Notes under the pieces: generated by a model
Database searches by the model: none
What the model saw: only the letters and a program-made list of their open reading frames with translations
What the model was told of the DNA's origin: nothing
Position numbers and translations under genes: made by a program
Source: Gammaproteobacteria bacterium HGW-Gammaproteobacteria-15
GTDB lineage: Bacteria > Pseudomonadota > Gammaproteobacteria > Enterobacterales > Alteromonadaceae
Direction: 5' to 3'
NCBI GenBank assembly: GCA_002840125.1
Contig: PGZF01000003.1
Coordinates: 558,001 to 622,000 of the forward strand
Length of the DNA stretch: 64,000 nucleotides
Shown: positions 47,081 to 64,000 of the stretch, one piece after another
Layout: each line of letters opens with the position of its first letter
Numbering within the stretch: the stretch's first letter is position 1

Positions 47081-47194
47081 GGTAACCCCATTGGTCCTCT
47101 CGCAATACTAGTAAGCGAACCTGGTCAGGTCCGGAAGGAAGCAGCCACAGTTTATGACGTATGTGCCGGGATGTGGCTGGTGGGGTTGCCACCC
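47081..47194 (+). ncRNA. ffs: 4.5S RNA of the signal recognition particle
   Basis: About 114 nt. The SRP core is unmistakable: CAGGTCCGGAAGGAAGCAGC (47126-47145) contains the GGAAG apical loop and Ffh-binding asymmetric loop, and TGTGCCGGGATGTGGCTGG continues the other strand. The terminal stem GGTAACCCCA (47081-47090) pairs with TGGGGTTGCC (47181-47190). It forms the SRP with Ffh for cotranslational targeting of membrane proteins. The 3' end is opposed by the antisense ybaM coding sequence. Confidence 0.96.
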
Positions 47195-47724: not shown

Positions 47725-48822
47725 ATGCAAAAAAATACCACTCCCTGCTACTACGGCGATTACCTGCAACTGGACAAAATACTGACAGCGCAGGCGCCAG
47801 AAAGCGCCAAATACGCCGCTGAGGCCCATGATGAAACGTTGTTTATTATTGTGCATCAGGTTTATGAGCTGTGGTTTAAGCAAATTTTGCACGAACTAAA
47901 GGCTGTGATGGATGTGTTTGCCGGTGAAGAAGTTAAAGATGAGCAGCTTACCGGGATAGTGCATAAGTTAAAGCGGGTGATCACGATTCAGCAACTGCTA
48001 AATCAGCAGATTGGTGTGATTGAAACAATGACACCACAGGATTTTATGTCATTTCGTGATTATCTGGTGCCGGCTTCCGGCTTTCAAAGTATTCAGTTTA
48101 AAATGCTGGAAATTGGCCTGGGCCTGAAAAGTGATTTTCGTATCGATTTTGATAAAAACTCTTTTTACAGCCGGCTGAATGAGAAAGATCGCAACTTTTT
48201 ACAGCAACTGGAGCATGAGCCCAGCTTGTTTGAGCGGATTGAAAAATGGCTGGAACGGATGCCGTTTCTTGAGCTGGAAAACTTCAGCTTCTGGCAGATG
48301 TATCAGCAAGCCACCGACGCCATGCTATCAGAAGATAAAAGCACCGTGCAGGCCATTGAACAGATTGCCGAACATGAACGCGAATTGCAGCTGGCCGAAA
48401 TTGCCCGCACTGCGGAGAAGTTTGCTGCCTTGCTGGATAAAGATAAGTATGCGCAACTGCAGCAATCCGGCGCATTCCGCTTAAGCCAGCGGGCGATGTT
48501 GTCGGCGCTGTTTATCAGCCTGTATCAGGAAGAACCGGTTTTTAATCTGCCGTTTCAGTTGCTGACCTGTTTAACCGAAATTGATGAGCTGTTAACCATT
48601 TGGCGCTACAAACATGCCATGATGGTACAACGTATGCTGGGTACCAAAATTGGCACTGGTGGCTCGTCCGGGCATGATTATTTAAAACGCACGACAGAAA
48701 AAAACCGTATTTTTACCGACTTGTTTAATATGGCAACCTTCTTGTTGCCAAAAGCAGACTTACCCGTGCTGCCTGGCCAGGTAAAACGGCGCTTAGGTTT
48801 CTATTTTGCCGGCGAAGTCTGA
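47725..48822 (+). CDS. kynA: Tryptophan 2,3-dioxygenase
   Basis: 365-residue heme dioxygenase opening the indole ring of tryptophan to N-formylkynurenine. Diagnostic motifs: CYYGDYLQLDKILTAQ, ETLFIIVHQVYELWFKQIL, FRDYLVPASGFQSIQFK, and GTGGSSGHDYLKRT near the C terminus. Length is greater than the roughly 280 of some bacterial TDOs and nearer the longer family forms. No kynureninase or formamidase gene is nearby. The 3' end overlaps the convergent deacetylase gene by 30 bp. Confidence 0.93.
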   Translation: MQKNTTPCYYGDYLQLDKILTAQAPESAKYAAEAHDETLFIIVHQVYELWFKQILHELKAVMDVFAGEEVKDEQLTGIVHKLKRVITIQQLLNQQIGVIETMTPQDFMSFRDYLVPASGFQSIQFKMLEIGLGLKSDFRIDFDKNSFYSRLNEKDRNFLQQLEHEPSLFERIEKWLERMPFLELENFSFWQMYQQATDAMLSEDKSTVQAIEQIAEHERELQLAEIARTAEKFAALLDKDKYAQLQQSGAFRLSQRAMLSALFISLYQEEPVFNLPFQLLTCLTEIDELLTIWRYKHAMMVQRMLGTKIGTGGSSGHDYLKRTTEKNRIFTDLFNMATFLLPKADLPVLPGQVKRRLGFYFAGEV

Positions 48823-49749
48823 GCCGTGTAGCGTAAAAGCAGCTTTAAACAGCTGCAGGTGCAGTTGTACCAGCGCATCAATATTGCGCTGGTAACCACC
48901 GCCGATAACAGCGGCAACCGGTATACCCTGTTCAACACAGCTTTGTAGTACCAGCAAATCGCGTTGGTATAACGCCCCGGTAGAGATATTCAGTAACCCC
49001 AGTTCATCCTGTTGGTGAATATCCACACCGGCGTCAAAAATCACTAAATCCGGTCTGTGCCAGTTAAGCAAGGTTTGCAGGCTTTGCTGCACTGCCTGTA
49101 AATAGTCAGTGTCGGAACAATCTTTTGCCAGCCCGATATCCCAGTCTGAATGTTGTTTGCGGGAAGGAAAGTTTTTTTCGCAGTGCACAGAGCAACTAAT
49201 AATGCGCGGCTCGTCGGCCAGTAACAGCGCACTGCCATCGCCCTGATGTACATCCAGATCCAACAGCAGAATTTTATCCAGCCCATGAGTCAGCATGGCT
49301 TTAGCGGCCACTACCAGATCGTTAAATAAACAAAACCCTGAACCTTCGGCATAAAAAGCATGGTGATAGCCACCACTTAAATGCAGCGCTATACCACTGT
49401 TAAGGGCCGCCTGGGCTGTTTGCACTGTGCCGCCAACTGAACATAGTGAACGCTGGAATAGCTGTTCTGACCAGGGAAAACCAATGCGGCGCATCGCTTT
49501 GGCAGCAATAGTACCATCAGCCAGGCTTTGAATATAAGCACGGCAATGTACCTCTGCCAGCTGCTCTGCAGTTACAGGTACCGACAGGGTAAAGGCGCTC
49601 TCGGGCAGCCCTATATCCAGCAGGCGCTGATACAAAGCACGGTATTTGGTAATGGGATAACGGTGCCTGTCAGGCAGGTTAAGCTCACTGTAACAAGGGT
49701 GATACAACATGGCAGGCAGCGCGCTGAGCTTTGGTTTGGCTATTAACAT
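48793..49749 (-). CDS. Histone deacetylase-like amidohydrolase
   Basis: 318-residue arginase/deacetylase-fold enzyme. The zinc ligands are visible in LLDLDVHQGDG (Asp, His) and FDAGVDIHQQDELG (Asp). The catalytic histidine pair is in SGGYHHAF, and a late GGGY supplies the conserved tyrosine (AVIGGGYQRNID). Bacterial members deacetylate acetyl-amines or proteins; the substrate here is unknown. It starts 4 bp after priC on the same strand and overlaps the 3' end of kynA by 30 bp antisense. Confidence 0.87.
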   Translation of the reverse strand: MLIAKPKLSALPAMLYHPCYSELNLPDRHRYPITKYRALYQRLLDIGLPESAFTLSVPVTAEQLAEVHCRAYIQSLADGTIAAKAMRRIGFPWSEQLFQRSLCSVGGTVQTAQAALNSGIALHLSGGYHHAFYAEGSGFCLFNDLVVAAKAMLTHGLDKILLLDLDVHQGDGSALLLADEPRIISCSVHCEKNFPSRKQHSDWDIGLAKDCSDTDYLQAVQQSLQTLLNWHRPDLVIFDAGVDIHQQDELGLLNISTGALYQRDLLVLQSCVEQGIPVAAVIGGGYQRNIDALVQLHLQLFKAAFTLHGSDFAGKIET

Positions 49750-49753
49750 CAGA

Positions 49754-50293
49754 TCAGTTCCGCCGCTCCAGATCCTGAATTTGCCGCTCTATGTCTGACA
49801 ACGCTTTGCGACAGCGGCCTAACCGGGCATGTAAAGCCAAAGTGCGCTGTATAGCTTCGGCTGAATTTTCCCGGTTAGCCAGGCTTATCATATCCTGTAA
49901 GCGGCGCTCAAACTCCTGTGTATCACTGAGTTGCTGGTACAACTGCTGGCTGCTGGCGCTTATTTGTTGTACCACAGCTTTAAGCTTGCCGCCTCTGCTG
50001 TTAGTTTTCCGTCTTACATCAACATTGCGAAATGCCTGGGTCAGGGCTGCTGTTTGTTCGCTTAAACGTTGCACCAGACGTTGCTTTGCCATGGCACTGA
50101 TGCCGCTGTCCTGCACATGGCGCAGGTTGCGTTGTGCTTCACCAACGTAGTCAGTCAGGTGTGGCGAGCGGCAACTGAACAGGGCGCTGTCAAACCAGTT
50201 TTGCGGCCTGCCAGCTACCTGTTGCTGATCAATATTCTCAGCCTGTTGCCGCAGTTGTTGCAACTGATGGGTTAACGTAGCCAGTAAATCCAT
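49754..50293 (-). CDS. priC: Primosomal replication protein PriC
   Basis: 179-residue helical protein. The FDSALFSCRSPHLTDYVGEAQRNL region, the EFERRLQDM motif and the C-terminal LGRCRKALSDIERQIQDLERR match E. coli PriC, which reloads DnaB at stalled forks. Length compares with 175 in E. coli. It directly follows the TauE/SafE gene with no gap and precedes the deacetylase gene by 4 bp, so the minus-strand genes from dinG to the deacetylase may form one unit. Confidence 0.85.
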   Translation of the reverse strand: MDLLATLTHQLQQLRQQAENIDQQQVAGRPQNWFDSALFSCRSPHLTDYVGEAQRNLRHVQDSGISAMAKQRLVQRLSEQTAALTQAFRNVDVRRKTNSRGGKLKAVVQQISASSQQLYQQLSDTQEFERRLQDMISLANRENSAEAIQRTLALHARLGRCRKALSDIERQIQDLERRN

Positions 50294-51076
50294 TTAGCTG
50301 CCCCAGGCCTGCCAAGCCAGACGCAGGGCTATAGCAATAACCACGCATATAAATACCGGGCGGATAAAGCGGCTGCCAAATTTAATGGCTGAATGCGCAC
50401 CCAGCCAGGCGCCCAGCATCAGGCATAACCCCATTGCAATACCCAGGGCAAAGTTCACATGGCCCAAAGCAATAAAAGCTACCAGCGAAAAACCATTGCT
50501 GACAAAATTCATCGTGCGTGCCACGCCGCAGGTTAGCAGCAGATTGATTTTGTACAATGCCATAGTAGACACCATCCAGAATGCCCCGGCACCCGGGCCG
50601 GCAATACCATCATAAAAGCCCAGAGTCAGACCCTGCGCCCGTTGTTGCCAGAATAACTTAGCGTTTTGCGGCGGTAGCTTTAAGGCATCGTCCGGTTGCA
50701 TGCGGTTAAACAGCGTATAGATGGCAGCCAATAAAATAAGCAGCGGCAATATTTTTTCCAGTGCTTCTTTACTGATCATGTCTACAACCAGCGTGCCCAA
50801 CACTGCACCGATAGCGGTATAGAATAAACTGCGGCGCCAAAAAACCGGATTAAACAGTTTTTTACGGTAATAGGTAACGGATGCTGTAAGAGAGCCAAAT
50901 GTTGATGCCAGCTTATTGGTGCCCAGCACCACATGCGGAGGCAGGCCCGCGGTAAGCAAGGCCGGTACTGTCAGCAGGCCGCCACCGCCGGCAATAGCGT
51001 CAATAAAACCGGCACTGAATGCAACAGCACAGAGGATCAACAATACAGAAGGTTCTAAAGTTAATTCAGCGAACAA
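50294..51076 (-). CDS. TauE/SafE family sulfite/organosulfonate exporter-like permease
   Basis: 260-residue polytopic membrane protein with about eight hydrophobic segments and the repeated family motif: FSAGFIDAIAGGGGLLTVPALL near the N terminus and GFYDGIAGPGAGAFWM in the second half. LGTNKLASTFGS is also typical. Members export sulfite, sulfoacetate or related anions, but most remain uncharacterised. It lies between dinG (12 bp upstream) and priC. Substrate cannot be told from context. Confidence 0.9.
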   Translation of the reverse strand: MFAELTLEPSVLLILCAVAFSAGFIDAIAGGGGLLTVPALLTAGLPPHVVLGTNKLASTFGSLTASVTYYRKKLFNPVFWRRSLFYTAIGAVLGTLVVDMISKEALEKILPLLILLAAIYTLFNRMQPDDALKLPPQNAKLFWQQRAQGLTLGFYDGIAGPGAGAFWMVSTMALYKINLLLTCGVARTMNFVSNGFSLVAFIALGHVNFALGIAMGLCLMLGAWLGAHSAIKFGSRFIRPVFICVVIAIALRLAWQAWGS

Positions 51077-51088
51077 GGCAGGTTCCTG

Positions 51089-53128
51089 TTAATACTCAAT
51101 TTGACGACGAAACGGAGGCAAGGCATTTAGCATAGCACTGCCGTAAGCTTTAGTTACCAGACGCCGGTCAAGGATCACTATTCTGCCTTCGTCTTGCTCC
51201 TGGCGTAGCAGTCTACCACAGGCTTGCACCAGTTTCTTTGAGGTAGCAGGAATAGTCAGTTGCAAAAACGCATTACCGCCTTTTTTTGTAATCGCCTCAG
51301 CTAAGGCTTCTTCCAGAGGCGAGGTAGGTACTGCAAAAGGTAGTTTGGTAATAACCAGATTGGTTAGCAGTTTACCGGGTAAATCCAGCCCTTCAGAAAA
51401 ACTCTGGGTGCCAAATAAAATGCTTGTGCGGTTATGTTTACAGTTTTCGCCGTGTAACTGCAGTAAAGCCTGGCGCGAAGCTTCCCCTTGTACCAGCAGC
51501 GAAAACTTCTTTTTACGCAGTACTTCAGCGACTTGCTGCATTTGCCAGTATGAAGCAAACAACACCAGGCTGGCCTGATCGTCGGGCAAGTAAGCAGGCA
51601 GCAGTGTTGCCAGTTCGTTGGTATAGGCCTGCTCCGTGGGATCTGTCTGCATTTTCGGAATAACAATCCGGCCTTTTTCTGCGTAGGCAAAAGGCGATGC
51701 AACCTGCAATGTTTGTACACCTTCAAATTGTGTTAAGCCCAGATCGTACTTAATGTACTGAAATGAATTCAGCGCCGTAAGTGTTGCAGAACAGAGGATC
51801 ACCGCAAACGCGTCGGTAAATAGCAGCTGCTCCAGCTTATTTGCCACGCCAAGTGGGCAAGCATGGCCAATAACGTACTGGCTCTGATTTTGCAGCTCGA
51901 CCCAGCGTGCCTGGTAAACATTTTTTTCCTGCTCTGCCGCATACAGTTGCCACAGGGATTGTTGTTGCTCAATTTTCTGGCGCAGGTAAGTTAATTCCTG
52001 CAACAGGTTCATGCTTTGTTTTAGCGGTAGTTGCTGTTCAGTGACGTTTTCCTGCAAATGCTGCTGAATTTTTTCCAGTTGCGTCAGCGCCTTCTGGCTT
52101 ACCTGTGCCAGTTGCTCGGCCTGTTGCTGAAACAGCTTAGGCAGGGCGGCGTCTGTAAAACGAAATTCTGTTTTCTCACCAAACCAGCGCGGCTTAAATT
52201 CGCCTATACAGCGCTCGATAGGTTTAAGTAAACTGTTAAGTTCATTGCAGCTATCATCAAAGCGCAATAACTCTTTCATCACGGTAGCCGGCAGCAGGGT
52301 AATCAGCTGTTGAATGGTTTTAGCCGCCTTTTCCAGCCACACGCTATTGTGAGTAAGCTGGGCCTGAGCGGCAAAAAACTCCCGCGCGCTGTCGGGCAAA
52401 TGGTGCGCCTCGTCTATCACATAAAGCGTTTCTTCGGGAGGCGGTAATATACTATTACCACTGGATAAATCTGCCAGCAATAAAGCATGGTTTACCACCA
52501 GCACATCGGCGTTACTTACTTCGGCACGGGCAAGGTGAAACGGGCAGTTCATATGGCGGCGGTCTGTTTTGCTGCAATGCAGCGGATCCGCAACAATACG
52601 CTGCCACAAATCTTCAGTTAATGGTGTGGCCAACGTATCCCTGTCGCCCAGCCATTTACGCTGCTGCCAGTTATCCAGCAACTGTTGCCAGTCAAAAGCT
52701 GCATCCTTAGCCGTTGCAAATAACTCAGGATGCTTTTGCTGCTGACGCACACGTTCAATACAAGCATAGCGCTGTCGGCCCTTTACCAGGCTGAACTCAA
52801 ATAACAGCTTACTATGCTGCTGAAAAAACGGCAGGTCTTTGTTCACCAATTGTTCCTGCAGCGCCACCGTAGCCGTGGCAATAACCACTTTTTTCTTCTG
52901 CGCTAATGCATAAGGGATAACCGCCAGCATATAAGCCAGTGATTTACCGGTACCGGTGCCAGCTTCAATTAACCCAATGCGCTCACGACGATGATAAGTG
53001 CCAGAGACTATTTTAGCCATCTCAGCCACTAATTGATTCTGCCCCTGCCGGGGTTGGTAATTAGGCAGGGTAGTTTTTATACGCGTATGGATAGCGCGGA
53101 TTTGGCTTTTTAGCTGGTCACTTAACAT
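51089..53128 (-). CDS. dinG: ATP-dependent DNA helicase DinG
   Basis: 679-residue XPD-like superfamily 2 helicase, 5'-3', acting on R-loops, D-loops and G-quadruplexes in damage repair. Walker A EAGTGTGKS at 55-63, DEAH box at 239-242 (VIDEAHH), and C-terminal helicase motifs (LVLFASYWQMQ, GTQSFSEGLDLPG, QACGRLLRQEQD). Of the four Fe-S cysteines of E. coli DinG, three are seen (C123, C185, C195). The position equivalent to C199 is not cysteine. A LexA-box-like site lies just upstream of the ATG. Confidence 0.93.
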   Translation of the reverse strand: MLSDQLKSQIRAIHTRIKTTLPNYQPRQGQNQLVAEMAKIVSGTYHRRERIGLIEAGTGTGKSLAYMLAVIPYALAQKKKVVIATATVALQEQLVNKDLPFFQQHSKLLFEFSLVKGRQRYACIERVRQQQKHPELFATAKDAAFDWQQLLDNWQQRKWLGDRDTLATPLTEDLWQRIVADPLHCSKTDRRHMNCPFHLARAEVSNADVLVVNHALLLADLSSGNSILPPPEETLYVIDEAHHLPDSAREFFAAQAQLTHNSVWLEKAAKTIQQLITLLPATVMKELLRFDDSCNELNSLLKPIERCIGEFKPRWFGEKTEFRFTDAALPKLFQQQAEQLAQVSQKALTQLEKIQQHLQENVTEQQLPLKQSMNLLQELTYLRQKIEQQQSLWQLYAAEQEKNVYQARWVELQNQSQYVIGHACPLGVANKLEQLLFTDAFAVILCSATLTALNSFQYIKYDLGLTQFEGVQTLQVASPFAYAEKGRIVIPKMQTDPTEQAYTNELATLLPAYLPDDQASLVLFASYWQMQQVAEVLRKKKFSLLVQGEASRQALLQLHGENCKHNRTSILFGTQSFSEGLDLPGKLLTNLVITKLPFAVPTSPLEEALAEAITKKGGNAFLQLTIPATSKKLVQACGRLLRQEQDEGRIVILDRRLVTKAYGSAMLNALPPFRRQIEY

Positions 53129-53135
53129 GTCTGAT

Positions 53136-53151
53136 GTGTATTTATATACAG
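53136..53151 (-). promoter_or_regulatory. LexA-box-like operator of dinG
   Basis: Plus strand reads GTGT (53136-53139), eight A/T bases, ACAG (53148-53151): 7 of 8 matches to CTGT-N8-ACAG with an A/T-rich centre, 8 bp before the dinG start codon. DinG is an SOS gene in E. coli, which supports the call. Confidence 0.65.
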
Positions 53152-53293
53152 TTGTTTGATTGTATACGTAATACGCTTTACAGGCAAAACATTCGCGATT
53201 CCTTCAGCCTAAAGAAATTAGTTCAGTTAGTTGCCGGAAAAGACTGGTAAGTGTCATTAATTATTGTAGTTAAAAGTTTACGGACGTTGTTTT

Positions 53294-53326
53294 ACTTACA
53301 CTAGTTTTTACTGAGCTAGTGCAAGT
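53294..53326. repeat. Interrupted inverted repeat upstream of receptor 1
   Basis: ACTTACACTAG (53294-53304) and CTAGTGCAAGT (53316-53326) are inverted repeats with one mismatch and an 11-bp centre. It lies more than 150 bp upstream of both flanking starts with no T-run in the dinG direction, so an operator is more likely than a terminator. Confidence 0.45.
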
Positions 53327-53483
53327 GCCGACAAAACCTGTTTTTACCTAAGCTGTTGACTATATTAGTTAGAGTTTCGATGGTTAAGGGGTTGACAATA
53401 GCTAATAACAAAGAAAAACGTCATTTGAGCATACGTAGTGCAGGTCGCGACAATGTAAATTACAAATTGTTCCGTAAAAGCTG

Positions 53484-53513
53484 TTGACCCTGCTGAAAAA
53501 TTACGTTTATTAT
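53484..53513 (+). promoter_or_regulatory. Promoter of receptor 1
   Basis: -35 TTGACC (53484-53489), an 18-bp spacer, -10 TATTAT (53508-53513). The same hexamers and spacing occur upstream of receptor 2, which strengthens the call. Confidence 0.7.
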
Positions 53514-53535
53514 CACTGTGCGATAAGTAGGAGGT

Positions 53536-53687
53536 TATCCGAGATAAGCGGAGTGCCAGATGCTGTAAAAGGTAGGTAACTGTTAAAAAAATAGAATCAC
53601 TAGATAGTGGTCCAGGGAGAAATACATGTATACGAATAATAAATTAAGCAAAGCTGTGCGCTTGGCCATTGCTTTTGGAGCTGCGTC
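53536..53687 (+). repeat. Shared leader/signal-peptide cassette, copy A
   Basis: A 21-bp block at 53536-53556 (TATCCGAGATAAGC then GGAGTGC), 19/21 identical to copy B, is followed by a stretch at 53591-53687 that is nearly identical to 56827-56924 (about seven substitutions and one single-base indel). It covers the ribosome site AGGGAG, the ATG and the first 21 codons. Confidence 0.85.
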
Positions 53688-56604
53688 GCCACTCTTTATT
53701 GCTGCGAATGCACATGCACAAGAAGGGCAAGCTGCTGAGCAACAAGTAGAGAAAATTCAAATTACTGGTAGCCGTATCAGAAGTGCAAACGCGCTGTCTA
53801 CCAGTCCGATTACTACTATTGATGCGTCTGAAATAGACGTTCGGCAACAACCAGAAATTGAGCGGGTATTTCGCAGTTTACCGGCGGCCTTGCCTGGCGA
53901 TAACAGTAACGTAAACAACGGCACCGGTGGTGCAGGCACCATTAGCTTACGAGGTTTAGGACCTAACCGTAACTTAATCCTGTTAAATGGTAAGCGGATG
54001 GTACCTTATAATACCGCTGGTAGTGTTGACACTTCTACTATACCAACAGCCTTGATAGAGCGTATTGATATCGTAACGGGCGGCGCCTCGGCAGTATATG
54101 GCTCTGACGCTATTTCTGGCGCGGTAAATATCATATTAAAACGGGATTTTGAGGGCGTTGAGTTAGATATGACTCATTCGCGCACCAAACATGCTGATGC
54201 ATTTGCAGACAGTATTGCTTTAACTGCTGGCGGTAACTTTGACCGTGATAAGGGTAATGCCGTTGTCTCTTTTAGCTGGTTAGATCGTGATCCTCTTTTA
54301 TTAGGCCAGCGCCCACTGGGTAATTATGGTATCTCAACTGCTACCGGTGCCAACCTGGACAATTTCTTAAATGGAGTAGCGCCACTACCACCAACCGATG
54401 CACTATGTGGTCAGGATGCGCCTAATGCTGTAGCACCTGGCGGCGGCAGCCCCACTGGTATACCTACGCGTGTGGGTATCTTAGGCGTTACACCTTCTTT
54501 TGGTCAGTTCCGTGACGATGGGCGTCTGGTGCTCGGGCCTCGTTGTTCAGACCACAACTTTAACCCCTATAATTACTACCAAACACCGTCTAAGCGTTAT
54601 TCTGCGACGGCAATGGTCAATTACGAAATAAATGACAGCACATCGTTATATGGCACATTCAACTTCACCAACACTTCTGTGTCTCAGCAGGTCGCGCCAT
54701 CGGGTATTTTCGGCAATACCTTTATGGTTCCTCTGGCTAACCCATTTCTGAGTGATCAGGCAAGAACGGCATTGATCGATGTAGCGAATGCTAATCTTGG
54801 CGCCCTGAATCCAACCGGACTGCAGACATGGATTGACAGCAATAATAATGGCGCAGTTGATGCTGCTGACTCTGTATTAATGCAGGTGTTTCGTCGCACG
54901 CCTGAACTAGGCCCGCGTTCTACCTCATTTAATACCGATCAATTCCAGATTGTCGCTGGCGTGAAAGGCTTTATCAACGACGACTGGGCTTACGATGTAT
55001 CTGTGCAGCACGGCGAAACAAACCGGGTGAATACTAATGCCGGCTACAGCAACGTGGCCAATATTGGAAATGCCTTAAATGCAGTTAACACTACTACGTG
55101 CCGTACGGGCGGCGCAGGGTGTGTACCACTAAATGTATTTGGTGGTTACGGTACTATTACCCCGGAAATGGCAGCTTATGCTTCGGCTACAGCGTTTGCT
55201 ACAACGTCTTATCAGCAGCGTGTAGTAACCGGCTCGGTAGATGGCCCAATTGACGCCATCGTTTCTCCGTTTGCTGAATCACCGCTTGCTGTGAGTTTTG
55301 GTTATGAATATCGTGAAGAGATCGCTTTCTTCAATCCGGATGAGTGTTTAAAACTTGCGCCGACCAGTTGTCTGGGTGGTGCAGGTGGTAATTCTCTGCC
55401 AGTTGGCGGTGATTTCAAAGTCAACGAGATATTTGGCGAAGGTAAACTGGCTTTAATAGAAAATGCTCCGTTGGTAGATGTACTTGAGCTTGAGTTTGGA
55501 TATCGCCATGCTAATTACAGTACTGTTGGAGAGAACGGCAGCTGGAAATTAGGCTTGGCATGGCGTCCTGTTGATGAGTTATTAGTTCGTGTTATGAAAC
55601 AACAGGCTACCCGCGCACCTAACGTCGGCGAGTTGTATGCGCCTTTGACCACAGGTCTGGATAATGCTGACATGGACCCATGCTCAAATGCTAACCCCAA
55701 TATTGATGCTACGTTAAGAGCCCGTTGTATTTCTACCGGTATGACCGATGCGCAGGTAGGTGCAGTTGATGATATAGCTGCTGGTCAGATTAACCAACAG
55801 ACTGGTTCTAATCCAAATGCGTTGCCGGATGCAGAAAAAGCCAGCACAATCACTGCAGGTGTCGTGTGGACTCCCCGCTTTGACGCTGTTAAACGTGTTC
55901 AGCTTTCAGTTGATTACTATGACATCGACGTACAAGGCTATATTGGTGAGAATACTCCACAAGAAATTCTTGACGGTTGCTACGATCTAGGTATTGCTAG
56001 CCAGTGTGCGCTGATAACCCGTATCGGTGGTTCACTGAACGTACCAGGCGCTGGTGTCCAGGCGTATACCACTAACCTGTCTTACTTACATACCCGTGGT
56101 GTTGAAGCTGCGTTTAACTTCGGCTTCGATTTGGGTGGTTTAGGTTCTTTAGACTTTAGCGGTAACGTCAATAAATACCTTAAAGCTGATCAATTAAGCT
56201 CGCCGGTATCTGATGTGATTGACTGTAACGGTTTCTACGGTACCAATTGTCAGCCGCAGCATTCGCTTCGTGGTAGTCAGCGTACTACCTGGAGCTATGA
56301 AGATTTCTCCGTTTCTTTACTGTGGCAGTACTTAGGTTCTATTGAACGCGAGAAGTCGCAGCAAGCGGGTGCTTTTGCTCCGTTCCGTCAAATTGGTTCA
56401 TACAGCTACTTCGATTTATCTGCAAGTTATGCTGCATTTGACAATGTAACGCTGCGCTTGGGCGTGGATAACCTGTTCGACAGACAGGCACCGGTGGTGG
56501 GTGCTGACTCTGCTAGTACATCGTGGAACAGCGGTAATACTTTCCCTGCTTTCTATGACATGTTAGGCCGTACTTATAGATTCAGTGTAAATATGAAATT
56601 CTAA
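53626..56604 (+). CDS. TonB-dependent outer-membrane receptor 1
   Basis: 992-residue TonB-dependent receptor. The signal peptide is about 1-31 (MYTNNKLSKAVRL ... ANAHA). A short segment with EKIQITGSRIR precedes the plug (about 50-165), with ISLRGLGPNRNLILLNGKRM and GGASAVYGSDAISGAVNIILKRD. The beta-barrel continues to a C-terminal phenylalanine (RFSVNMKF). RAPNVGELYAP and cysteine pairs in extracellular-loop positions are typical of the large Alteromonadales/Xanthomonadales receptors. Ligand is unknown. It ends in a strong terminator and has its own promoter. Confidence 0.93.
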   Translation: MYTNNKLSKAVRLAIAFGAASPLFIAANAHAQEGQAAEQQVEKIQITGSRIRSANALSTSPITTIDASEIDVRQQPEIERVFRSLPAALPGDNSNVNNGTGGAGTISLRGLGPNRNLILLNGKRMVPYNTAGSVDTSTIPTALIERIDIVTGGASAVYGSDAISGAVNIILKRDFEGVELDMTHSRTKHADAFADSIALTAGGNFDRDKGNAVVSFSWLDRDPLLLGQRPLGNYGISTATGANLDNFLNGVAPLPPTDALCGQDAPNAVAPGGGSPTGIPTRVGILGVTPSFGQFRDDGRLVLGPRCSDHNFNPYNYYQTPSKRYSATAMVNYEINDSTSLYGTFNFTNTSVSQQVAPSGIFGNTFMVPLANPFLSDQARTALIDVANANLGALNPTGLQTWIDSNNNGAVDAADSVLMQVFRRTPELGPRSTSFNTDQFQIVAGVKGFINDDWAYDVSVQHGETNRVNTNAGYSNVANIGNALNAVNTTTCRTGGAGCVPLNVFGGYGTITPEMAAYASATAFATTSYQQRVVTGSVDGPIDAIVSPFAESPLAVSFGYEYREEIAFFNPDECLKLAPTSCLGGAGGNSLPVGGDFKVNEIFGEGKLALIENAPLVDVLELEFGYRHANYSTVGENGSWKLGLAWRPVDELLVRVMKQQATRAPNVGELYAPLTTGLDNADMDPCSNANPNIDATLRARCISTGMTDAQVGAVDDIAAGQINQQTGSNPNALPDAEKASTITAGVVWTPRFDAVKRVQLSVDYYDIDVQGYIGENTPQEILDGCYDLGIASQCALITRIGGSLNVPGAGVQAYTTNLSYLHTRGVEAAFNFGFDLGGLGSLDFSGNVNKYLKADQLSSPVSDVIDCNGFYGTNCQPQHSLRGSQRTTWSYEDFSVSLLWQYLGSIEREKSQQAGAFAPFRQIGSYSYFDLSASYAAFDNVTLRLGVDNLFDRQAPVVGADSASTSWNSGNTFPAFYDMLGRTYRFSVNMKF

Positions 56605-56630
56605 TATTTAAATAGTGCTGAATTAGTTAA

Positions 56631-56657
56631 AGCAGCTGGTTGCCCAGCTGCTTTTTT
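56631..56657 (+). terminator. Terminator of receptor 1
   Basis: AGCAGCTGG (56631-56639), loop TTGC, CCAGCTGCT (56644-56652), then TTTTT, 27 bp after the stop. Confidence 0.92.
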
Positions 56658-56721
56658 GTTGGTATGTTTCCATTGCATTACAACCTCATTTCGTCGTTTC
56701 CAGAAAAGTTCCCTAAATATA

Positions 56722-56751
56722 TTGACCCAAACAAAAAACTCCGTTTATTAT
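56722..56751 (+). promoter_or_regulatory. Promoter of receptor 2
   Basis: -35 TTGACC (56722-56727), an 18-bp spacer, -10 TATTAT (56746-56751), as for receptor 1. An inverted repeat CTCCG (56739-56743)/CGGAG (56752-56756) brackets the -10, and CCGTTTAT (56741-56748) can pair with ATAAACGG (56782-56789). Both could be regulatory. Confidence 0.7.
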
Positions 56752-56773
56752 CGGAGCACGTTAGAACGGAGAC

Positions 56774-56924
56774 TATCCGGGATAAACGGAGTGCTAGCTG
56801 CCATTAATGGCTGGTTACTATTCAAAATAGAATCACTAGAAGAGTGGTCCAGGGAGAAATACATGTATACGAATAATAAATTAAGCAAAGCCGTGCGCTT
56901 AGCTATCGCTTTTGGTGCTGCTTC
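56774..56924 (+). repeat. Shared leader/signal-peptide cassette, copy B
   Basis: Counterpart of copy A: the 21-bp block at 56774-56794 and the 98-bp near-identical stretch 56827-56924 including the ribosome site, start codon and first 21 codons. Downstream of codon 21 the two receptor genes are clearly different. Confidence 0.85.
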
Positions 56925-59694
56925 AGCAACTGCTTTTACTACCTCGACAGTAATGGCTGCGGAAGAAGAAACAGCCAAAGTTGAACGTATTGAAGTAACA
57001 GGTTCACGCATTAAACGGACAGATTTTGAAAGTGCCGTACCAGTAACGGTAATTTCAGCGGCTGAAATTCAAATGACAGGGGCTACCAACGTTGCAGATG
57101 TCCTGCAAAAAAATCCTGTGGCTATGGCTGGCTCAGATCAATCAAACGTTACGTTTAGTCTAAACTCTTCAGGGCTTAACACTACTTCTTTAAGAAATGC
57201 GGGTACGGCCAGAACATTAATTCTGGTTAATGGCCGTCGTTTTGTGTCTGGTTCATCGCCTTCAGCTGGCTATGCTGTAGACTTAAATGCTATTCCTGCA
57301 TCGACTATTGACCGTATTGAAATTCTGAAAAGCGCTTCTTCAGCAGTATATGGTTCAGATGCTGTAGCAGGTGTCATCAATATTATTACCAAAAAAGACT
57401 TTGATGGTGTAGCCATTAACGCCCAAGCTGGGCAATCAGGCGAAAGTGATCGCGAGCGTTTAGATCTTGATATGACTGTAGGTAAGTCATGGAGTGATGG
57501 TAATGCCTGGGTGTCTTTCGGTTACCATGATGATGCCGGTATTTTCGGCCCTGAACGTCCTGAGCAGACAAGAGATTTAGCATCAGTTAATGGTGAATGG
57601 GTTCCGGTTAAATCTGCTTATAATCCAGCAGGTTTTTTCTCTGTTCCAGGAGTGGGTGCCTTTAAGGGGGATGGAACACCTTACGTTGCTGCTACTGATG
57701 CCTATGACCGTGGTTCTCGTCGTCAGTTAATCATCCCATTGGAGCGTAAATATTTTGCTGCAAACCTGAACCAGGAAATTACCTCTGATCTGCGTTTTTT
57801 CTCTGAGTTTAACTGGATGCAGGTTGATTCAACATCACTGTTTGAACCAACTCCATTGAACTTAGTTGATATTTGGATTAAGCAACGTGGTGGTACAGAT
57901 GGTCATGATGTTGCTAGTTCTTTAATTATGCCACAACTGCTGAAAGATAATTTGTTGGGGGCCGGGGTAACTAATCTTAATCAGCTAAATACTATTGGCC
58001 GCCGTATGACAGAGTTTGGGGACCGCGGTAACGACGCCACCCGGACTACTTCACGCATTGCTAGTGGATTTGACTGGAATATCAATGATAACTGGGTAAT
58101 GAACTCCTATTTAACTTGGGGCCAGACGATTCAGAACCAGTTTAGTTATGGTGAGCTAAATATGGAACGGGCAAAAAATGCTCTTGACCTTATTGAGCTG
58201 AATGGTCAGGTCGTTTGTCGTGATGCTACTGCTCGTCTGCAAGGTTGTACCCCGTTTAATATTTTTGGTGCAAACACTGTATCTGCTGAGGCAGTAGAGT
58301 ACCTTAATGCACCATCTAAAACGTTGGGTATGGTTGAGCAGTTGGTTGTAGGTGCTTCGGTTGCTGGAGAGCTTGGCATAGAGTTACCCGGTGGTCCAAT
58401 CAGTGTGGCTGGAGGTTTTGAATATCGCGAAGAGTCAGGTAAGCAAGAGGCAAGTGATTTAGCTCAGATCGGTGCAACGTCTTCTAACCGCCAATTGCCT
58501 ACCGATGGTACTTTCACTGTGCGAGATGTATTCGCAGAAGCCCGCTTCCCAGTGTTAGATATTTGGTCGATTGATGCAGCTGTGCGTCATGGTAATTATT
58601 CTTCTGTCGGTAACGTGACGACATGGAACCTAGGTACTGAGTTAAGTCCTACTGATCGCATTAAGTTCCGAGCTTCTGCAGCAAAAGCTGTTCGTGCACC
58701 GAATGTGGCTGACTTGTATGGCGGTGTAACTGAAACATTTGCTACTGTTACTGATCCTTGTGATGGGGTTAAAGTTGGTGATACTGGTACTGTTAAAGCA
58801 AACTGTTTATCTATTCCGGAAATTGCAGCTCGTGCAGCAGCAAACCCTGCCACGGGCTTCTTACTGACTCAACTGGAGAAACAACAAACTGGTGGTTTTG
58901 TTGGTGGTAACCCAGATGTAAAAGAAGAGTCTGCAAACACCTACAGCATTGGTGCTGTGTTTGAGGTGATGGATGGTTTATCGGCAACGATAGATTGGTA
59001 CTCAATTGAAATTGAAGATGCGATCAGTACGACATCACGTAGTTTAGTGATGAGCCGTTGCTTCAACGTAGCTTCGGGTTTTGATGCTACTTGTGGCGGT
59101 AAAGCACGTCGTAACAGTGATGGAGCCTTGACGGGCGTAGATTCAGGCTCTGGCAACGAAAATAACATTGAGATTGAAGGTGTTGACGTAGAGCTGCGTT
59201 ATAGAACCAATATTGGTTCAGGCAGTTTAACGACGGATCTTATCTATACACATCTGAACAAATATAATATTGAGAGTATTGAGTCAGGTAAAGTGGATAA
59301 GTACGCAGGTGAAGTTACAACGCCTAAACACCGTTTTAATGTAAATGTTGGCTATGAGTGGAACGACCTAAATGTGTTCTGGCGTTTGCGCTATTGGCAT
59401 TCAGTTGAAGATGCTCTGTCAGGTCAGGATCAGCGTAACCAAGATTTTGGTACCGGTGGTCCTATTCCTGATAACCTGAATAAGATCAGTGCAGTTACTT
59501 ACCACGACTTACAGGCAAGTTACCAGATTATACCTAGCACCAGTATTTATTTTGGTGTGAATAACTTGTTTGACAAAAATCCACCGATTTTAGCTCAAGG
59601 TACTAACAGTGGTGGTACCGGTATCAATACTGCGTCAGAAGCTTATGATGTGGTTGGACGTTACTTCTATGCCGGTTTCAGAGCTAAGTTCTAA
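56863..59694 (+). CDS. TonB-dependent outer-membrane receptor 2
   Basis: 943 residues from the ATG at 56863. The frame is open upstream to 56656, but the start is fixed by the shared AGGGAG ribosome site and signal peptide (MYTNNKLSKAVRL ... TSTVMAA). The plug follows VERIEVTGSRIKR, with LRNAGTARTLILVNGRRFV and SASSAVYGSDAVAGVINIITKKD. The barrel contains RAPNVADLYGG and ends VVGRYFYAGFRAKF. Same receptor class as its neighbours; ligand unknown. Bounded by its own promoter and terminator. Confidence 0.93.
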   Translation: MYTNNKLSKAVRLAIAFGAASATAFTTSTVMAAEEETAKVERIEVTGSRIKRTDFESAVPVTVISAAEIQMTGATNVADVLQKNPVAMAGSDQSNVTFSLNSSGLNTTSLRNAGTARTLILVNGRRFVSGSSPSAGYAVDLNAIPASTIDRIEILKSASSAVYGSDAVAGVINIITKKDFDGVAINAQAGQSGESDRERLDLDMTVGKSWSDGNAWVSFGYHDDAGIFGPERPEQTRDLASVNGEWVPVKSAYNPAGFFSVPGVGAFKGDGTPYVAATDAYDRGSRRQLIIPLERKYFAANLNQEITSDLRFFSEFNWMQVDSTSLFEPTPLNLVDIWIKQRGGTDGHDVASSLIMPQLLKDNLLGAGVTNLNQLNTIGRRMTEFGDRGNDATRTTSRIASGFDWNINDNWVMNSYLTWGQTIQNQFSYGELNMERAKNALDLIELNGQVVCRDATARLQGCTPFNIFGANTVSAEAVEYLNAPSKTLGMVEQLVVGASVAGELGIELPGGPISVAGGFEYREESGKQEASDLAQIGATSSNRQLPTDGTFTVRDVFAEARFPVLDIWSIDAAVRHGNYSSVGNVTTWNLGTELSPTDRIKFRASAAKAVRAPNVADLYGGVTETFATVTDPCDGVKVGDTGTVKANCLSIPEIAARAAANPATGFLLTQLEKQQTGGFVGGNPDVKEESANTYSIGAVFEVMDGLSATIDWYSIEIEDAISTTSRSLVMSRCFNVASGFDATCGGKARRNSDGALTGVDSGSGNENNIEIEGVDVELRYRTNIGSGSLTTDLIYTHLNKYNIESIESGKVDKYAGEVTTPKHRFNVNVGYEWNDLNVFWRLRYWHSVEDALSGQDQRNQDFGTGGPIPDNLNKISAVTYHDLQASYQIIPSTSIYFGVNNLFDKNPPILAQGTNSGGTGINTASEAYDVVGRYFYAGFRAKF

Positions 59695-59714
59695 TTCTGG
59701 ACGGTAGATAATTG

Positions 59715-59748
59715 GGCCTGTAGTTGAAAAACTACAGGCCTTTTTTTT
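59715..59748 (+). terminator. Terminator of receptor 2
   Basis: GGCCTGTAGTT (59715-59725), loop GAAA, AACTACAGGCC (59730-59740), an 11-bp stem followed by eight T. Confidence 0.95.
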
Positions 59749-59857
59749 CAGTCGAAATCACTTCCTCCGGAGTGATCGTTTATTTGGAACTGTGCCCGTA
59801 GAGTAGCATGTTAGATACTTCGCTTGTTTGTAATCAGTAAATGAGGAAGTAATTAGC

Positions 59858-60007
59858 ATGAATAGGTATGGATCCGCATTATATGGCACCTATCTGTGCC
59901 AGAAAAAGTTATGTGGTAACCACTTCTGGCAGTTGGAGTACTTTTTATGGGTAAGACTGTTAGGCATCAGGATAAAGTGGCAAGAGAAGACGAGGGACAT
60001 CAGTTAA
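59858..60007 (+). CDS. Possible small ORF, 49 residues, unknown
   Basis: ATG at 59858 preceded by GAGGA about 10 bp upstream, stop TAA at 60005. The product would begin MNRYGSALYGTYLCQKKLC and continue with an aromatic stretch HFWQLEYFLWVRLLG, then end in charged residues. It resembles no family I know. An inverted repeat lies inside it, so the region may act as RNA or operator rather than as a coding sequence. Chance occurrence is quite possible. Confidence 0.25.
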   Translation: MNRYGSALYGTYLCQKKLCGNHFWQLEYFLWVRLLGIRIKWQEKTRDIS

Positions 60008-60397
60008 GGCTGGATATCGGAATAATTAAGCCCACCTTATAGGAGGCAACGCAAAGTCTCCTCCTGTGAAAGTAGATTTTTACTTGGTATCAGGTTATAT
60101 GAATAAAAAGAGTCATTGGGATCAATACGGTGAAATACCAAAAGTTTAGCGAAGGTACTTCTGCTCTGGGCTACTAAAATGAATTACTAGCTGTATGGCA
60201 TAGGGCATTTACAAATTTAAAGCCGAAACAACTATTTTAGATATTGGCACAGAAAATGGTGTGTCAGATAAGTTACTTAGTAAAAGTTGAGTTTTTTTAG
60301 TGAGGCGATTGTAGTCGATAGGTATATCTGTTAAAGATATGGTGTGTAACTAGATGTAACATACACAATAAAAATAAAAGTCTAGGGAGAATAATAA

Positions 60398-63364
60398 ATG
60401 AGAACTAAGTTATTCAGGAACACATTAACAGCGACAGCAGTCGCGGCGTCGTTGAGTAATTTGGCTGTTGCTCAAGAAGTGACTGAAAATGTAGAAGAAG
60501 CTAAAGCTGAACGTATAGTCGTGCTGGGATCTCGTATCCGAACAGATGGGCTGGATAATGCTGCACCGGTTGAAGTAATTAATGCCTCTGTTGCAGTAAG
60601 TCAGGGTATTACCAATCTGGCCGAGTTATTACGCAATTCTACTATTGCAGGCGGTTCTAATCAGGTTACTTCGGCTTCCTCTACAGCCTTTGTTTCAAAT
60701 GGGGGCGTGGGGGGAGAGAATATTTCTTTACGCGGACTTGGTGCCAACAGAACGTTGGTGCTTTTAAATGGCCGCCGTGCGGGACCTGCCGGAACAAGGG
60801 GGGCTGTGTCTTCGTTTGATCCAAATGTTTTACCGTTATCTGCAATAGAGCGCGTTGAGATCCTTAAAGATGGTGCTTCTTCACTGTACGGTTCTGATGC
60901 TGTAGCCGGCGTCATCAATATTATCACGAAGACTAATGATGATACCTCCGTTAACATTAATACCAGCCAGCCATTTGAAGCGGGTGGTGAAACATTAGAT
61001 TTTGATTTCACTATTGGCAGAAGCTTTGATCGAGGTTCATTGAGGTTTGTTGCTGACTATAAAATGCAAAAACAACTTGCTCAGGGACAACGTGATTATT
61101 TTGCGTGTGGTGAAAGATATGTATTTGATCCCAATACTGGTGAGCGGGCTGACTTGGTAGATCCTCGTACAGGAAAATACCACTGTGCTGATCTGCCATG
61201 GGGTCATGTATGGATTTATGACTATGCAGAAGATTCTAATATTGGAGCTGGTACTAAAGCCCAATATGATTATGATGGTAACCTTGGACAGTTTATTCCG
61301 GGTTTTGGGGCAAATCCCGCGAACCCGGAGCATATGTCGACTCCGCCAGGTTGGTTTCCTGTAGCATATGACTCAGCGTCTGATGCAGTGTTTAACTCTG
61401 ACCATCCATTTCAAGACCAACAGTCATTGATCCCAAAGAAAGAACTGCTGACAGCTTATTTGCAAGGTGATTACTCTTTGAGTGACGATGTTACACTTTA
61501 CGGTGAAGCATTAATGAACCGGCGCACAACAACAACCAACTCGTATCGGCAATTCTGGACTTATATCTATAATGGTAACTGGGATTTTGCAAATGGTATT
61601 GGTGGTGGTAATGACTTATACCAAGGTTGGAACGGAGCGCAATGGTATAGTCCTACGCCAATCACTGATCATTCGGGTAGCAAAATAGTTGTTGATTATA
61701 AGCGTTTCGTTGTTGGATTAAATGGGGAGCTTGATAATTGGTTTTGGGATATTGCTTATCAGCAAAGCTATAACGATGGGACCTATCGCAATAAGGTAAT
61801 TTTTGAAGATGCTGTAACCAGTAGTGAATTCGCTGCTGGTTCTTGTGTTGGTGAGCAGACTGCCGTGCGAGGAGTGCCGTGTATAGATGTTCCGTGGTTA
61901 GACCCACAGTTTCTTGCCGGCGATATGAGCAATGAAGTTAAAGCGTTTCTATTCGGTGAAGAAGAGGGAAGGACGGTTTATAAACAAAGCTCGGTTGAAG
62001 CTAATATCAGTGGTGACTTATTCGAGTTATCTTCGGGTATAGTTGCAGTGGCGTTTGGGGCATCGTTCCAGCAAGATTCTATTGTGGATACGCCGGGGGC
62101 TGTAACGCTGGCAGATAATGCATGGGGTTCGTCAGGGGCAGGTATCACAGCAGGTAAATCTAATACCAGAGCGATATTTGGTGAGGTCCATGTACCTATA
62201 GTGCGAGATGTTATGCTTATGGAGTCTCTGGATTTGACGATGTCCGCACGTTACACCGATGTTTCTACTTATGGCAGTGATACAACTTACAAAATAGGTA
62301 TCAACTGGATGATTGGGGGAGGGTTAAGGTTAAGAGCATCCCGGGGAACGTCCTTCCGCTCGCCAGCATTGTACGAATTGTATCTCAATAATCAGACAAC
62401 TTTTGCATCTCAACGTAGCATAGATCCGTGTATTCGGTGGGGACAAGGTCTTGAGAATGGCACGACTAATGCTTTGGTTGCTGCTAACTGTGAGGCTGAT
62501 GGGTTGCCGGCAGATTTCGCTGGCGGGGCTTCGAGTGCAACAGTAACAACCGCTGGTGGCTTGGGTGAATTAAAAGCTGAAACATCAGTAGCAAAAACTA
62601 TCGGTTTAGTCTGGACTCCTGCCACTACGACGTTTAGTGCGTCCGTTGACTATTTTAATATTGCTATAAGCGATGAGGTTACGTTGTTGACTGCCGCAGA
62701 AGTTATTCGTGGCTGCTACGATTCTGAGATATTTGGTTCTGAACCACTATGCGATAGATTCTCCCGGAGTTCAGTAGATAATCGTATTGAGGCAATTGAC
62801 CGTAAATATCTAAATATTGCCGATCAGAAAAACCGTGGTGTAGATATTATGTTGAACTATAGTATCGATTCGCCGGTAGGTGAGTTTCAGATTCGCTATG
62901 AACATACTGTGCAGCTGGAAGCCGAAAGTCAATTGTTTCCAACCAGTAAGCCTGAAGATGATGTTGGGTTGTTAGGTAGCCCTAAACATGTAGCTAACCT
63001 GAAATTGGGGCTTAATTACGACGACTGGAGTTTTAATTGGTTAGTCCGGTATGTTGGCTCAGGTGATAACTACACTGATTATGGTAACGGAACCTACAGA
63101 GACACTGCGGTTATCCGAGGAGAAACTGTAAAAGTTGTAGCGCATGCTGATGCTTATACATATCATACGTTTTCAACAACAAAAATATTTGGCGATACCG
63201 GTCTTACTGGTACGCTTGGGGTGAGTAATATTTTTGATAAAGCTCCTCCGCAAGTAACGACTTTAGGAGCTGTTGACTTAGATGTAATAGGTAACTCAGC
63301 CTTCTATTCCCAGTATGATTGGATAGGTAGACGAGTTTTCCTAAATTTGTCTTACGCTTTTTAA
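60398..63364 (+). CDS. TonB-dependent outer-membrane receptor 3
   Basis: 988-residue TonB-dependent receptor with a signal peptide of a different sequence (MRTKLFRNTLTATAVAASL ... AVA then QE). ERIVVLGSRIRT precedes the plug, with ISLRGLGANRTLVLLNGRRAG and DGASSLYGSDAVAGVINIITK. The barrel has RGTSFRSPALYELYL, cysteine pairs (DPCIRWGQG ... ANCEADG; RGCYDSE ... LCDRF), and ends VFLNLSYAF. Ribosome site AGGGAGAA lies 9 bp upstream. It does not share the receptor 1/2 leader. Ligand unknown. Confidence 0.92.
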   Translation: MRTKLFRNTLTATAVAASLSNLAVAQEVTENVEEAKAERIVVLGSRIRTDGLDNAAPVEVINASVAVSQGITNLAELLRNSTIAGGSNQVTSASSTAFVSNGGVGGENISLRGLGANRTLVLLNGRRAGPAGTRGAVSSFDPNVLPLSAIERVEILKDGASSLYGSDAVAGVINIITKTNDDTSVNINTSQPFEAGGETLDFDFTIGRSFDRGSLRFVADYKMQKQLAQGQRDYFACGERYVFDPNTGERADLVDPRTGKYHCADLPWGHVWIYDYAEDSNIGAGTKAQYDYDGNLGQFIPGFGANPANPEHMSTPPGWFPVAYDSASDAVFNSDHPFQDQQSLIPKKELLTAYLQGDYSLSDDVTLYGEALMNRRTTTTNSYRQFWTYIYNGNWDFANGIGGGNDLYQGWNGAQWYSPTPITDHSGSKIVVDYKRFVVGLNGELDNWFWDIAYQQSYNDGTYRNKVIFEDAVTSSEFAAGSCVGEQTAVRGVPCIDVPWLDPQFLAGDMSNEVKAFLFGEEEGRTVYKQSSVEANISGDLFELSSGIVAVAFGASFQQDSIVDTPGAVTLADNAWGSSGAGITAGKSNTRAIFGEVHVPIVRDVMLMESLDLTMSARYTDVSTYGSDTTYKIGINWMIGGGLRLRASRGTSFRSPALYELYLNNQTTFASQRSIDPCIRWGQGLENGTTNALVAANCEADGLPADFAGGASSATVTTAGGLGELKAETSVAKTIGLVWTPATTTFSASVDYFNIAISDEVTLLTAAEVIRGCYDSEIFGSEPLCDRFSRSSVDNRIEAIDRKYLNIADQKNRGVDIMLNYSIDSPVGEFQIRYEHTVQLEAESQLFPTSKPEDDVGLLGSPKHVANLKLGLNYDDWSFNWLVRYVGSGDNYTDYGNGTYRDTAVIRGETVKVVAHADAYTYHTFSTTKIFGDTGLTGTLGVSNIFDKAPPQVTTLGAVDLDVIGNSAFYSQYDWIGRRVFLNLSYAF

Positions 63365-63381
63365 ATTTTAATAAAATTAAT

Positions 63382-63406
63382 GCCGGCGCAAGCCGGCTTT
63401 TTTTTA
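63382..63406 (+). terminator. Terminator of receptor 3
   Basis: GCCGGC (63382-63387), loop GCAA, GCCGGC (63392-63397), then eight T, shortly after the stop. Confidence 0.92.
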
Positions 63407-63432
63407 ACAAAATATCAATGCAATGTATTTTG

Positions 63433-63446
63433 AATACTGCAGTATT
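63433..63446. promoter_or_regulatory. 14-bp perfect palindrome upstream of the sulfotransferase gene
   Basis: AATACTGCAGTATT is a perfect palindrome 39 bp before the ATG at 63485, in the only intergenic space between receptor 3 and this gene. An operator is possible. Confidence 0.4.
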
Positions 63447-63484
63447 GGTTATAGTTTTATCTATAAGATGATGTGGGGGCAACT

Positions 63485-64000
63485 ATGCCAAAAGTGATTC
63501 TGAAACAAGATAATTTAAATGAACTGAATGCTAATTACGTGCAGCACGCCTTACTTCGACCCGTATTACTGAACTCAGTACCAAAATGTGGAACTCATTT
63601 GATTAAAAACATTTTCCGTATGTTTGTTCCCGTGTCTCAGCAGTACCACAAAGCATTTATTCAGTTACCTATATTGAAAAATAATTTGTCAGCGTTTAAT
63701 CAGCAAATTCCCCATCTTAGTTGGGGGCATTTACTTTTCTCTGATGAATCAGCAATCGCCTTGCAAGATGTTAAGCATATTATCGTGGTAAGGGACCCTT
63801 ATGATTGGGTGCTAGCCAGAGCGCGATTTTTTTTGTCAGACAGTTTTCAGGGATCCATGGAGCATTTAAAAAACGGTCGGGTTTCGATCACTGAAATACT
63901 TAATATGATGATTTTTGGGGTTTATCAAAAAGCACCAACACTACAAGAAATCTATACGCATAATGCAATTGCATGGTTGGGAACTGGTATTAAGCTGGTC
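63485..64000 (+). CDS. Sulfotransferase family protein, N-terminal part (3' end outside window)
   Basis: 172 codons are open to the window edge without a stop. The ATG follows GGGGG at 6-10 bp. NSVPKCGTHLIKNIF (residues 30-44) fits the 5'-phosphosulfate-binding loop of PAPS-dependent sulfotransferases (PKxGTxxL). HIIVVRDPYDWVLARARFF (98-116) fits the 3'-phosphate motif (xRDPxDxxxS-like). The intervening sequence has LSWGHLLFSD where a catalytic histidine often occurs. No signal peptide, so cytosolic. Acceptor unknown. It lies 120 bp after receptor 3, beyond a terminator. Confidence 0.8.
   Translation, partial: MPKVILKQDNLNELNANYVQHALLRPVLLNSVPKCGTHLIKNIFRMFVPVSQQYHKAFIQLPILKNNLSAFNQQIPHLSWGHLLFSDESAIALQDVKHIIVVRDPYDWVLARARFFLSDSFQGSMEHLKNGRVSITEILNMMIFGVYQKAPTLQEIYTHNAIAWLGTGIKLV

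Follow-up and report, generated by a model that had tools for sequence, protein, structure and literature searches.

Replacement flexible genomic islands have been described in aquatic bacteria (Lopez-Perez et al. 2014, PMC4033161), in which, as the available parts of that paper describe them, strains carry at one and the same place different genes of like function for exposed surface structures (glycan, flagellum-glycosylation, capsule and giant-protein clusters), with homology in the flanks only and homologous recombination proposed as the means of exchange. A locus of comparable design was found in Gammaproteobacteria bacterium HGW-Gammaproteobacteria-15 (Alteromonadaceae), in a stretch of 64,000 nt that we call the window (assembly GCA_002840125.1, contig PGZF01000003.1, positions 558,001 to 622,000), where two TonB-dependent receptor genes, rec1 and rec2, have a promoter, a leader and the first 21 residues of the protein in common. 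Like the described islands, it combines one location of varying content, a similar surface function and homologous flanks, while the exchange itself, with homologous recombination as its agent, is what we infer. It differs from them, so far as the accessible text of PMC4033161 goes, in that the comparison is made here between species, in that the exchanged genes are TonB receptors (the word "TonB" is absent from that text), and in that the left border runs through a gene, whose promoter, leader and signal peptide stay and whose remainder changes. We consider it probable that the pair stands at the left edge of a replacement island, that this edge falls within a conserved module for expression and secretion, that receptor bodies are exchanged behind it, and that the leader has a role in the mRNA.

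For the leader, the known example with which it can be compared is the 5′ untranslated region of Escherichia coli ompA, a leader of at least about 100 nt with hairpins upstream of the ribosome-binding site (RBS), which stabilises the mRNA of a major outer-membrane protein. The putative hairpins described below also lie ahead of the RBS but, unlike in ompA, one leader is common to many different receptors. As in target leaders of CsrA/RsmA, ARGGA is located at the Shine-Dalgarno sequence, without the enrichment of further GGA sites seen in those targets. It is also similar to the cis-regulatory families of Rfam in being a conserved leader with pairing support before one class of genes, and unlike them in lacking an Rfam match: none was found at the leader in positions 48000-64000 of the window (E up to 1), nor, at gathering score, in the leader region before the receptor at nine other leader loci. 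In the titles and abstract openings listed by literature searches, neither a leader common to TonB receptors nor a dinG-apt island was found.

The receptor pair and the dinG locus

An earlier note on this DNA, made from the letters alone, had reported that rec1 and rec2 share a TTGACC-N18-TATTAT promoter, a 21-bp block after it and a nearly identical stretch around the start codon, and that the proteins diverge after 21 identical residues. This was borne out: both promoters are exact and lie where they had been placed, the block and the sequence surrounding the start codons can be aligned between the two genes (212 nt with 79% identity by blastn of one leader against the other), and the full-length proteins are 29% identical, with residues 1-21 the same. 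When the rec1 leader was used as a query against the whole genome, the second copy was retrieved with an E value of 5.8e-45 and no third site was found, and among the 60 TonB-receptor barrels of the genome the RBS block, with up to three mismatches, was present only at rec1 and rec2. A diverged form of the leader precedes two adjacent receptors on contig C8 (L021 and L046; blastn, RNA model E 0.005 and 0.018). The note had further proposed a modular unit for expression and secretion before non-orthologous receptors, kept or moved by recombination and constrained at the RNA level, which stood up, and its spread over many paralogues, which in this genome comes down to the pair and the one diverged pair. 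Simple recent duplication, named there as a case against the idea, is ruled out by the divergent bodies, and a leader unique to the pair, the other such case, by the copies found across the genus and the family.

The search of relatives that the note had suggested gave matches of the rec2 leader in all 31 genomes of the genus, perhaps Rheinheimera, and in each of them a leader copy adjoins the dinG-like helicase gene (L098 is that copy in G016). Gene identities given here as dinG, apt, ybaB, recR, htpG and tdo are putative; the Pfam domains of the flank genes are those of a helicase, a phosphoribosyltransferase (apt-like) and DnaX. The receptor bodies behind the dinG-side leader fall into clusters. 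For 25 genomes (300 pairs; G003, G016, G019, G022 and G024, with dinG or the dinG-side start cut, are outside this table), Mantel tests gave a rho of 0.52 (p 0.0005) for dinG and the leader and 0.354 (p 0.0005) for dinG and the signal codons, versus 0.032 (p 0.29) for dinG and the body; leader and body gave -0.163. In 176 of the 300 pairs the bodies were less than 40% identical, and the leaders of these pairs had a median identity of 83.9% and a maximum of 99.2%. G018 and G030 had leaders 99.2%, signal codons 98.4% and bodies 31.8% identical. Homology was unbroken through dinG, the leader and the signal codons in 8/8 aligned pairs, stopped 66-197 nt past the ATG, and resumed at the right flank (the 18 kb comparison covered 30 of the 31 genomes, all except G027).

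Judged by its sequence, rec1 is a mosaic, with a leader like those of dinG-locus relatives and a body like that of orthologues located elsewhere. The leaders of these orthologues were 69-72% identical to that of rec1 over the whole length in three cases and 82% identical over only 103 nt in the fourth. Set against two dinG-locus relatives with different bodies (G015 and G010) on one side and the four orthologues (G003, G019, G022, G024) on the other, rec1 had informative sites numbering 44 for the relatives and 1 for the orthologues between -200 and +33, 0 and 2 between +33 and +66, and 11 and 76 between +66 and +420. The switch falls in codons 12-22 of rec1 and coincides with the end of the identity described in the earlier note.

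The leader RNA and its distribution

In total, 143 leader copies were reduced to 122 distinct ones, one of which was too short for folding (n = 121), and one duplicate leader was removed before alignment. In 65 distinct leaders of the family a putative 7-pair hairpin ends at the U of UCC, with 83.7% of the cells paired versus 25-48% when the partner strand was slid, and changes on both sides were present at six of the seven pairs (25 cells versus 9.6 in shuffles). Across 33 leaders from three genera, the three hairpins together were 89.7% paired versus 22-42% with the partner slid. The mean folding z-score of the 121 leaders was -1.66. Weighed together with the contrary results given below, the hairpin adjoining the RBS (hairpin C) is graded by us as likely and the two upstream ones (A and B) as plausible.

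The constraint extends into the coding sequence. In 15 pairs of orthologues with bodies at least 80% identical (pooled; pairs share genomes and hence are not independent), shared residues had the same codon in 90% of cases over codons 2-11, a share that falls to 74% over codons 12-22 and to 65% for the body, from which it follows that the first ten codons are held at the nucleotide level. Viewed one by one, 11 of the 15 pairs had values for codons 2-16 that greatly exceeded those of almost every window in the body, and the other 4 showed no effect; this signal could have been raised by recent exchange of the module. The third-position changes from which selection on the peptide had been proposed are accordingly not uniform along the signal peptide: such selection is plausible for codons 12-21, while codons 2-11 are kept at the nucleotide level too.

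In the family, the rec2-leader query matched in at least 102 of 196 genomes and at least 35 of 52 genera (four candidates were scored per genome, making these counts lower bounds). In distant genomes the match is reduced to a core formed by the hairpin, UCCAGGGAG, a short spacer, the AUG and the signal-peptide codons; UCCAGGGAG was exact in 70 of 77 copies, and in 68 of these 70 the spacer to the AUG measured 5-7 nt. The core was also found before TonB receptors of other Alteromonadales. A hairpin-like sequence with UCCAGGGAG precedes receptors that have quite different signal peptides (L147, L149, L158, L169, L255, L268), and leader and signal peptide are thus separable. Across the order, the R1 search gave at least 29 of 394 genomes (16 candidates scored per genome, again a lower bound) and a pattern search 22 of 394, versus one genome with a match to the control. 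In a pattern scan of named genomes, 14 sites among the best 80 of 119 stretches lay before a TonB receptor (in Thalassotalea, Pseudidiomarina, Pseudoalteromonas, Lacimicrobium, Alteromonas, Colwellia, Thalassomonas, Psychrosphaera, Marisediminitalea and Paraglaciecola), and the other listed stretches look like chance. Two extra UCCAGGGAG sites before non-receptor genes of the genome that contains the window (C4:35616 and C1:1064413; RNA model E 0.40 and 0.44) had no clear hairpin by eye and were taken as chance, and spread on plasmids was rejected, as no plasmid match was obtained.

Signal recognition particle (SRP) RNA was found by the RNA-gene scan within the 8 kb stretch at 8 of the 14 loci (L199, L215, L222, L231, L245, L255, L268, L277) and lies at 47089-47185 in the window. 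Among 69 loci outside the genus, most of them with flanks of only 1.5 kb, dinG was present in 9 and a relative of the window gene 47725-48822 in 10. Therefore, the leader-bearing receptor tends to sit in one old chromosomal neighbourhood.

Some further observations concern the leader and its surroundings. In 39 of the 122 leaders the -10 box is followed by a GCGACAGATC-like block (up to two changes; 2.6 in shuffles), which was seen upstream at L153, L155, L192-L194, L199, L245 and L277; it may perhaps be a conserved 5′ end of the transcript. At rec2, CTCCGTTTAT of the -10 region forms a 10-bp inverted repeat with ATAAACGGAG further downstream (56738-56790); this repeat, not kept in rec1, is a possible operator. 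A Group II intron D1-D4 match is located at L268:1171-1340, a Paraglaciecola locus with a leader-bearing receptor. In the window, ARAGORN called a 93-nt tRNA-Asp with anticodon ATC (48850-48942), possibly a false call.

Content of the island

The island is bordered on the right by apt and dnaX, followed by genes that we take to be ybaB, recR and htpG. Both flanks were covered in 23 genomes, where dinG and apt were 5.5 to 15.2 kb apart and the island held one to three receptors (two or three in 18/23), with cargo differing between islands. A TonB receptor came first in all 30 stretches examined, followed by varying cargo. Receptors of this family are exposed at the cell surface. Both the plug (PF07715) and the barrel (PF00593) were above cut-off in rec1, rec2 and rec3, the third receptor of the island. 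Upstream of rec3 only a decayed TCTAGGGAG is present, and relatives of rec3 (50-59% identity) at ten loci of the genus (L099-L101, L103-L107, L110 and similar) bear the leader, a situation that would correspond to decay or loss of the leader here.

Ten cargo proteins were tested, among them a TPR-sulfotransferase, a sulfotransferase, 2OG-Fe(II) oxygenases, Asp/Asn hydroxylases, a methyltransferase, a radical SAM protein and an S9 peptidase. At L325:6015-10373, L328:6474-11209, L320:7442-9382 and L327:5113-11158 the receptors are accompanied by Asp/Asn hydroxylases and by TPR proteins that contain a sulfotransferase or 2OG-Fe(II) oxygenase domain; these enzymes perhaps modify a ligand or a surface protein. 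In many genomes the right part of the island holds an MbnB/TglH/ChrH-type enzyme for ribosomally synthesised and post-translationally modified peptides, a protein of the DUF2063 type and a small KCGEG-repeat protein (clusters c9, c7 and c10; L327:2911-4530 and L331:3475-3903, with the same clusters downstream of the window in L346), which presumably resemble a bufferin-type operon.

Table 1. Positions in the window of the two leader modules, the receptors of the island and its left flank
Feature	Position	Strand	Basis or remark
dinG-like helicase, left flank of island	51089..53128	-	Pfam Helicase_C_2, DEAD_2; adjoins a leader copy in 31/31 genus genomes
rec1 promoter TTGACC-N18-TATTAT	53484..53513	+	TTGACC 53484-53489, TATTAT 53508-53513; kept in most of 33 leaders, three genera
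rec1 plausible hairpin A, one mismatch	53528..53542	+	leader alignment
rec1 plausible hairpin B, with mismatches	53554..53578	+	leader alignment
rec1 likely hairpin C	53596..53611	+	hairpin scan and alignments
rec1 UCCAGGGAG, near-invariant block including the Shine-Dalgarno	53611..53619	+	
rec1 codons 1-21, common signal-peptide codons	53626..53688	+	mosaic switch between nt +33 and +66
rec1 TonB-dependent receptor, 992 aa	53626..56604	+	orthologues 75-79% in G003, G019, G022, G024
rec2 promoter TTGACC-N18-TATTAT	56722..56751	+	TTGACC 56722-56727, TATTAT 56746-56751
rec2 plausible hairpin A	56767..56779	+	leader alignment
rec2 plausible hairpin B	56794..56814	+	leader alignment
rec2 likely hairpin C	56832..56848	+	alignments; single-sequence scan favoured another helix for rec2
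rec2 UCCAGGGAG	56848..56856	+	
rec2 TonB-dependent receptor, 943 aa	56863..59694	+	no body >37% beyond the plug region among genus copies compared
rec3 TonB-dependent receptor, same island	60398..63364	+	upstream: decayed TCTAGGGAG only

Alternative explanations and significance

In the account that we propose, the conserved module comprises a sigma-70-type promoter, a leader RNA of about 105 nt (its start placed by inference) with three possible hairpins, then UCCAGGGAG, the start codon and some 21 signal codons, and is inherited mostly together with dinG, while the receptor body, often with neighbouring genes for modifying enzymes, is replaced. The exchange or deletion responsible would have the module as its homologous left arm and, as its right arm, either the housekeeping genes or another copy of the leader. 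The leader would stabilise the mRNA or set its translation, making any receptor behind it strongly and commonly expressed; by analogy with ompA, a stability or translation leader is the most likely role. A further reading, possible and offered tentatively, is that the leader represents an undescribed structured regulatory RNA of the Alteromonadales, read at hairpin C and UCCAGGGAG by a single trans-acting factor and setting the production of the main TonB receptors, and that its conservation doubles as a crossover site, so that receptors are interchangeable without loss of regulation.

Several results speak against parts of this account. The comparison is between species, with one genome each, and no single exchange event was caught. 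Bodies were at least 60% identical in 31 of the 300 pairs and 40-60% identical in 93, because of which body replacement is described as frequent, not constant. Regarding the RNA, RNAalifold predicted no pair on the 65-row alignment, and in the 33-row alignment the pairs with two-sided change numbered 5, where shuffles gave 4.5. When single sequences were scanned, 45 of 77 hairpins scored above 95% of the mononucleotide shuffles and 32 fell short; 54 other receptor upstream regions of the genome also had negative folding scores (mean z -0.94); the leaders of rec1 and rec2 themselves, with z-scores of -0.54 and -0.75, have only a small advantage over shuffles, and the minimum-energy fold of rec1 differs from the three-hairpin form.

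These last results are also what could be expected of a plain strong promoter and RBS that ordinary selection keeps for the sake of high expression, without a specific RNA structure or regulator: RNAalifold gave no structure, the two leaders of the window fold weakly, and the AGGGAG of UCCAGGGAG can base-pair with the 16S tail. Such selection, however, does not cover the pairing of hairpin C, which is kept while the sequence changes, nor the UCC ahead of the Shine-Dalgarno, which is equally constant as the Shine-Dalgarno itself, nor the recurrence of the hairpin and UCCAGGGAG before receptors with other signal peptides, and we regard this explanation as doubtful.

For the change of bodies, the main rival, and one that could give the same pattern as replacement, is birth and death in a tandem array, in which leader-bearing receptors are lost by recombination between leader repeats without any import from other lineages. 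The two or three receptors in most islands, several of them with leader copies, would fit such deletions, as would cluster c28, which is first in G012 and second in G005 and G017, and the two leaders within one island that are linked by blastn. However, non-receptor cargo also varies between islands, and the many body clusters would all need one common array. The leader of rec1, unlike those of its orthologues and like those of dinG-locus relatives, is a further point against this rival, but deletion could yield the same and hence it is not decisive. On balance, we judge loss alone to be unlikely.

Control of the leader by CsrA appears improbable to a similar degree. In this case, CsrA would bind CAGGGA at the Shine-Dalgarno and repress translation until removed by Csr small RNAs, with the hairpin positioning the site. 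Of 122 leaders, 118 have CARGGA at the RBS, a CsrA-Aln1 system whose predicted targets have transport or receptor function is predicted in Alteromonas (PMC5864184, as far as its accessible part goes), and TonB receptors were tentatively proposed as targets of Pf1-CsrA in Pseudoalteromonas (PMC9927453, likewise in part). On the other hand, GGA is depleted in the 98 nt upstream (97 versus 180 in mononucleotide shuffles, 121 leaders), with no GGA there in 60 of the 121, A-N-GGA occurs 28 times versus 58 in shuffles, and the site includes the Shine-Dalgarno, which is itself enough to conserve GGAG. With GGA depleted upstream, family-wide control through multiple CsrA sites was rejected. A mobile element that carries the module and inserts before receptors could account for near-identical modules ahead of unrelated bodies, but is highly improbable given the leader copy beside dinG in 31/31 genomes, the lack of a plasmid match and the lack of tRNA genes in the six island stretches scanned, where integrases and insertion sequences were not searched by profile.

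TonB receptors decide the entry of large nutrients, phages and bacteriocins. Through a locus where receptor bodies are replaced behind a constant module, a lineage could change a surface receptor and have the new one expressed immediately, from signals already in place. Such loci can also be searched for by means of the module, which further yields a candidate RNA element of receptor genes in bacteria common in seawater and fresh water.

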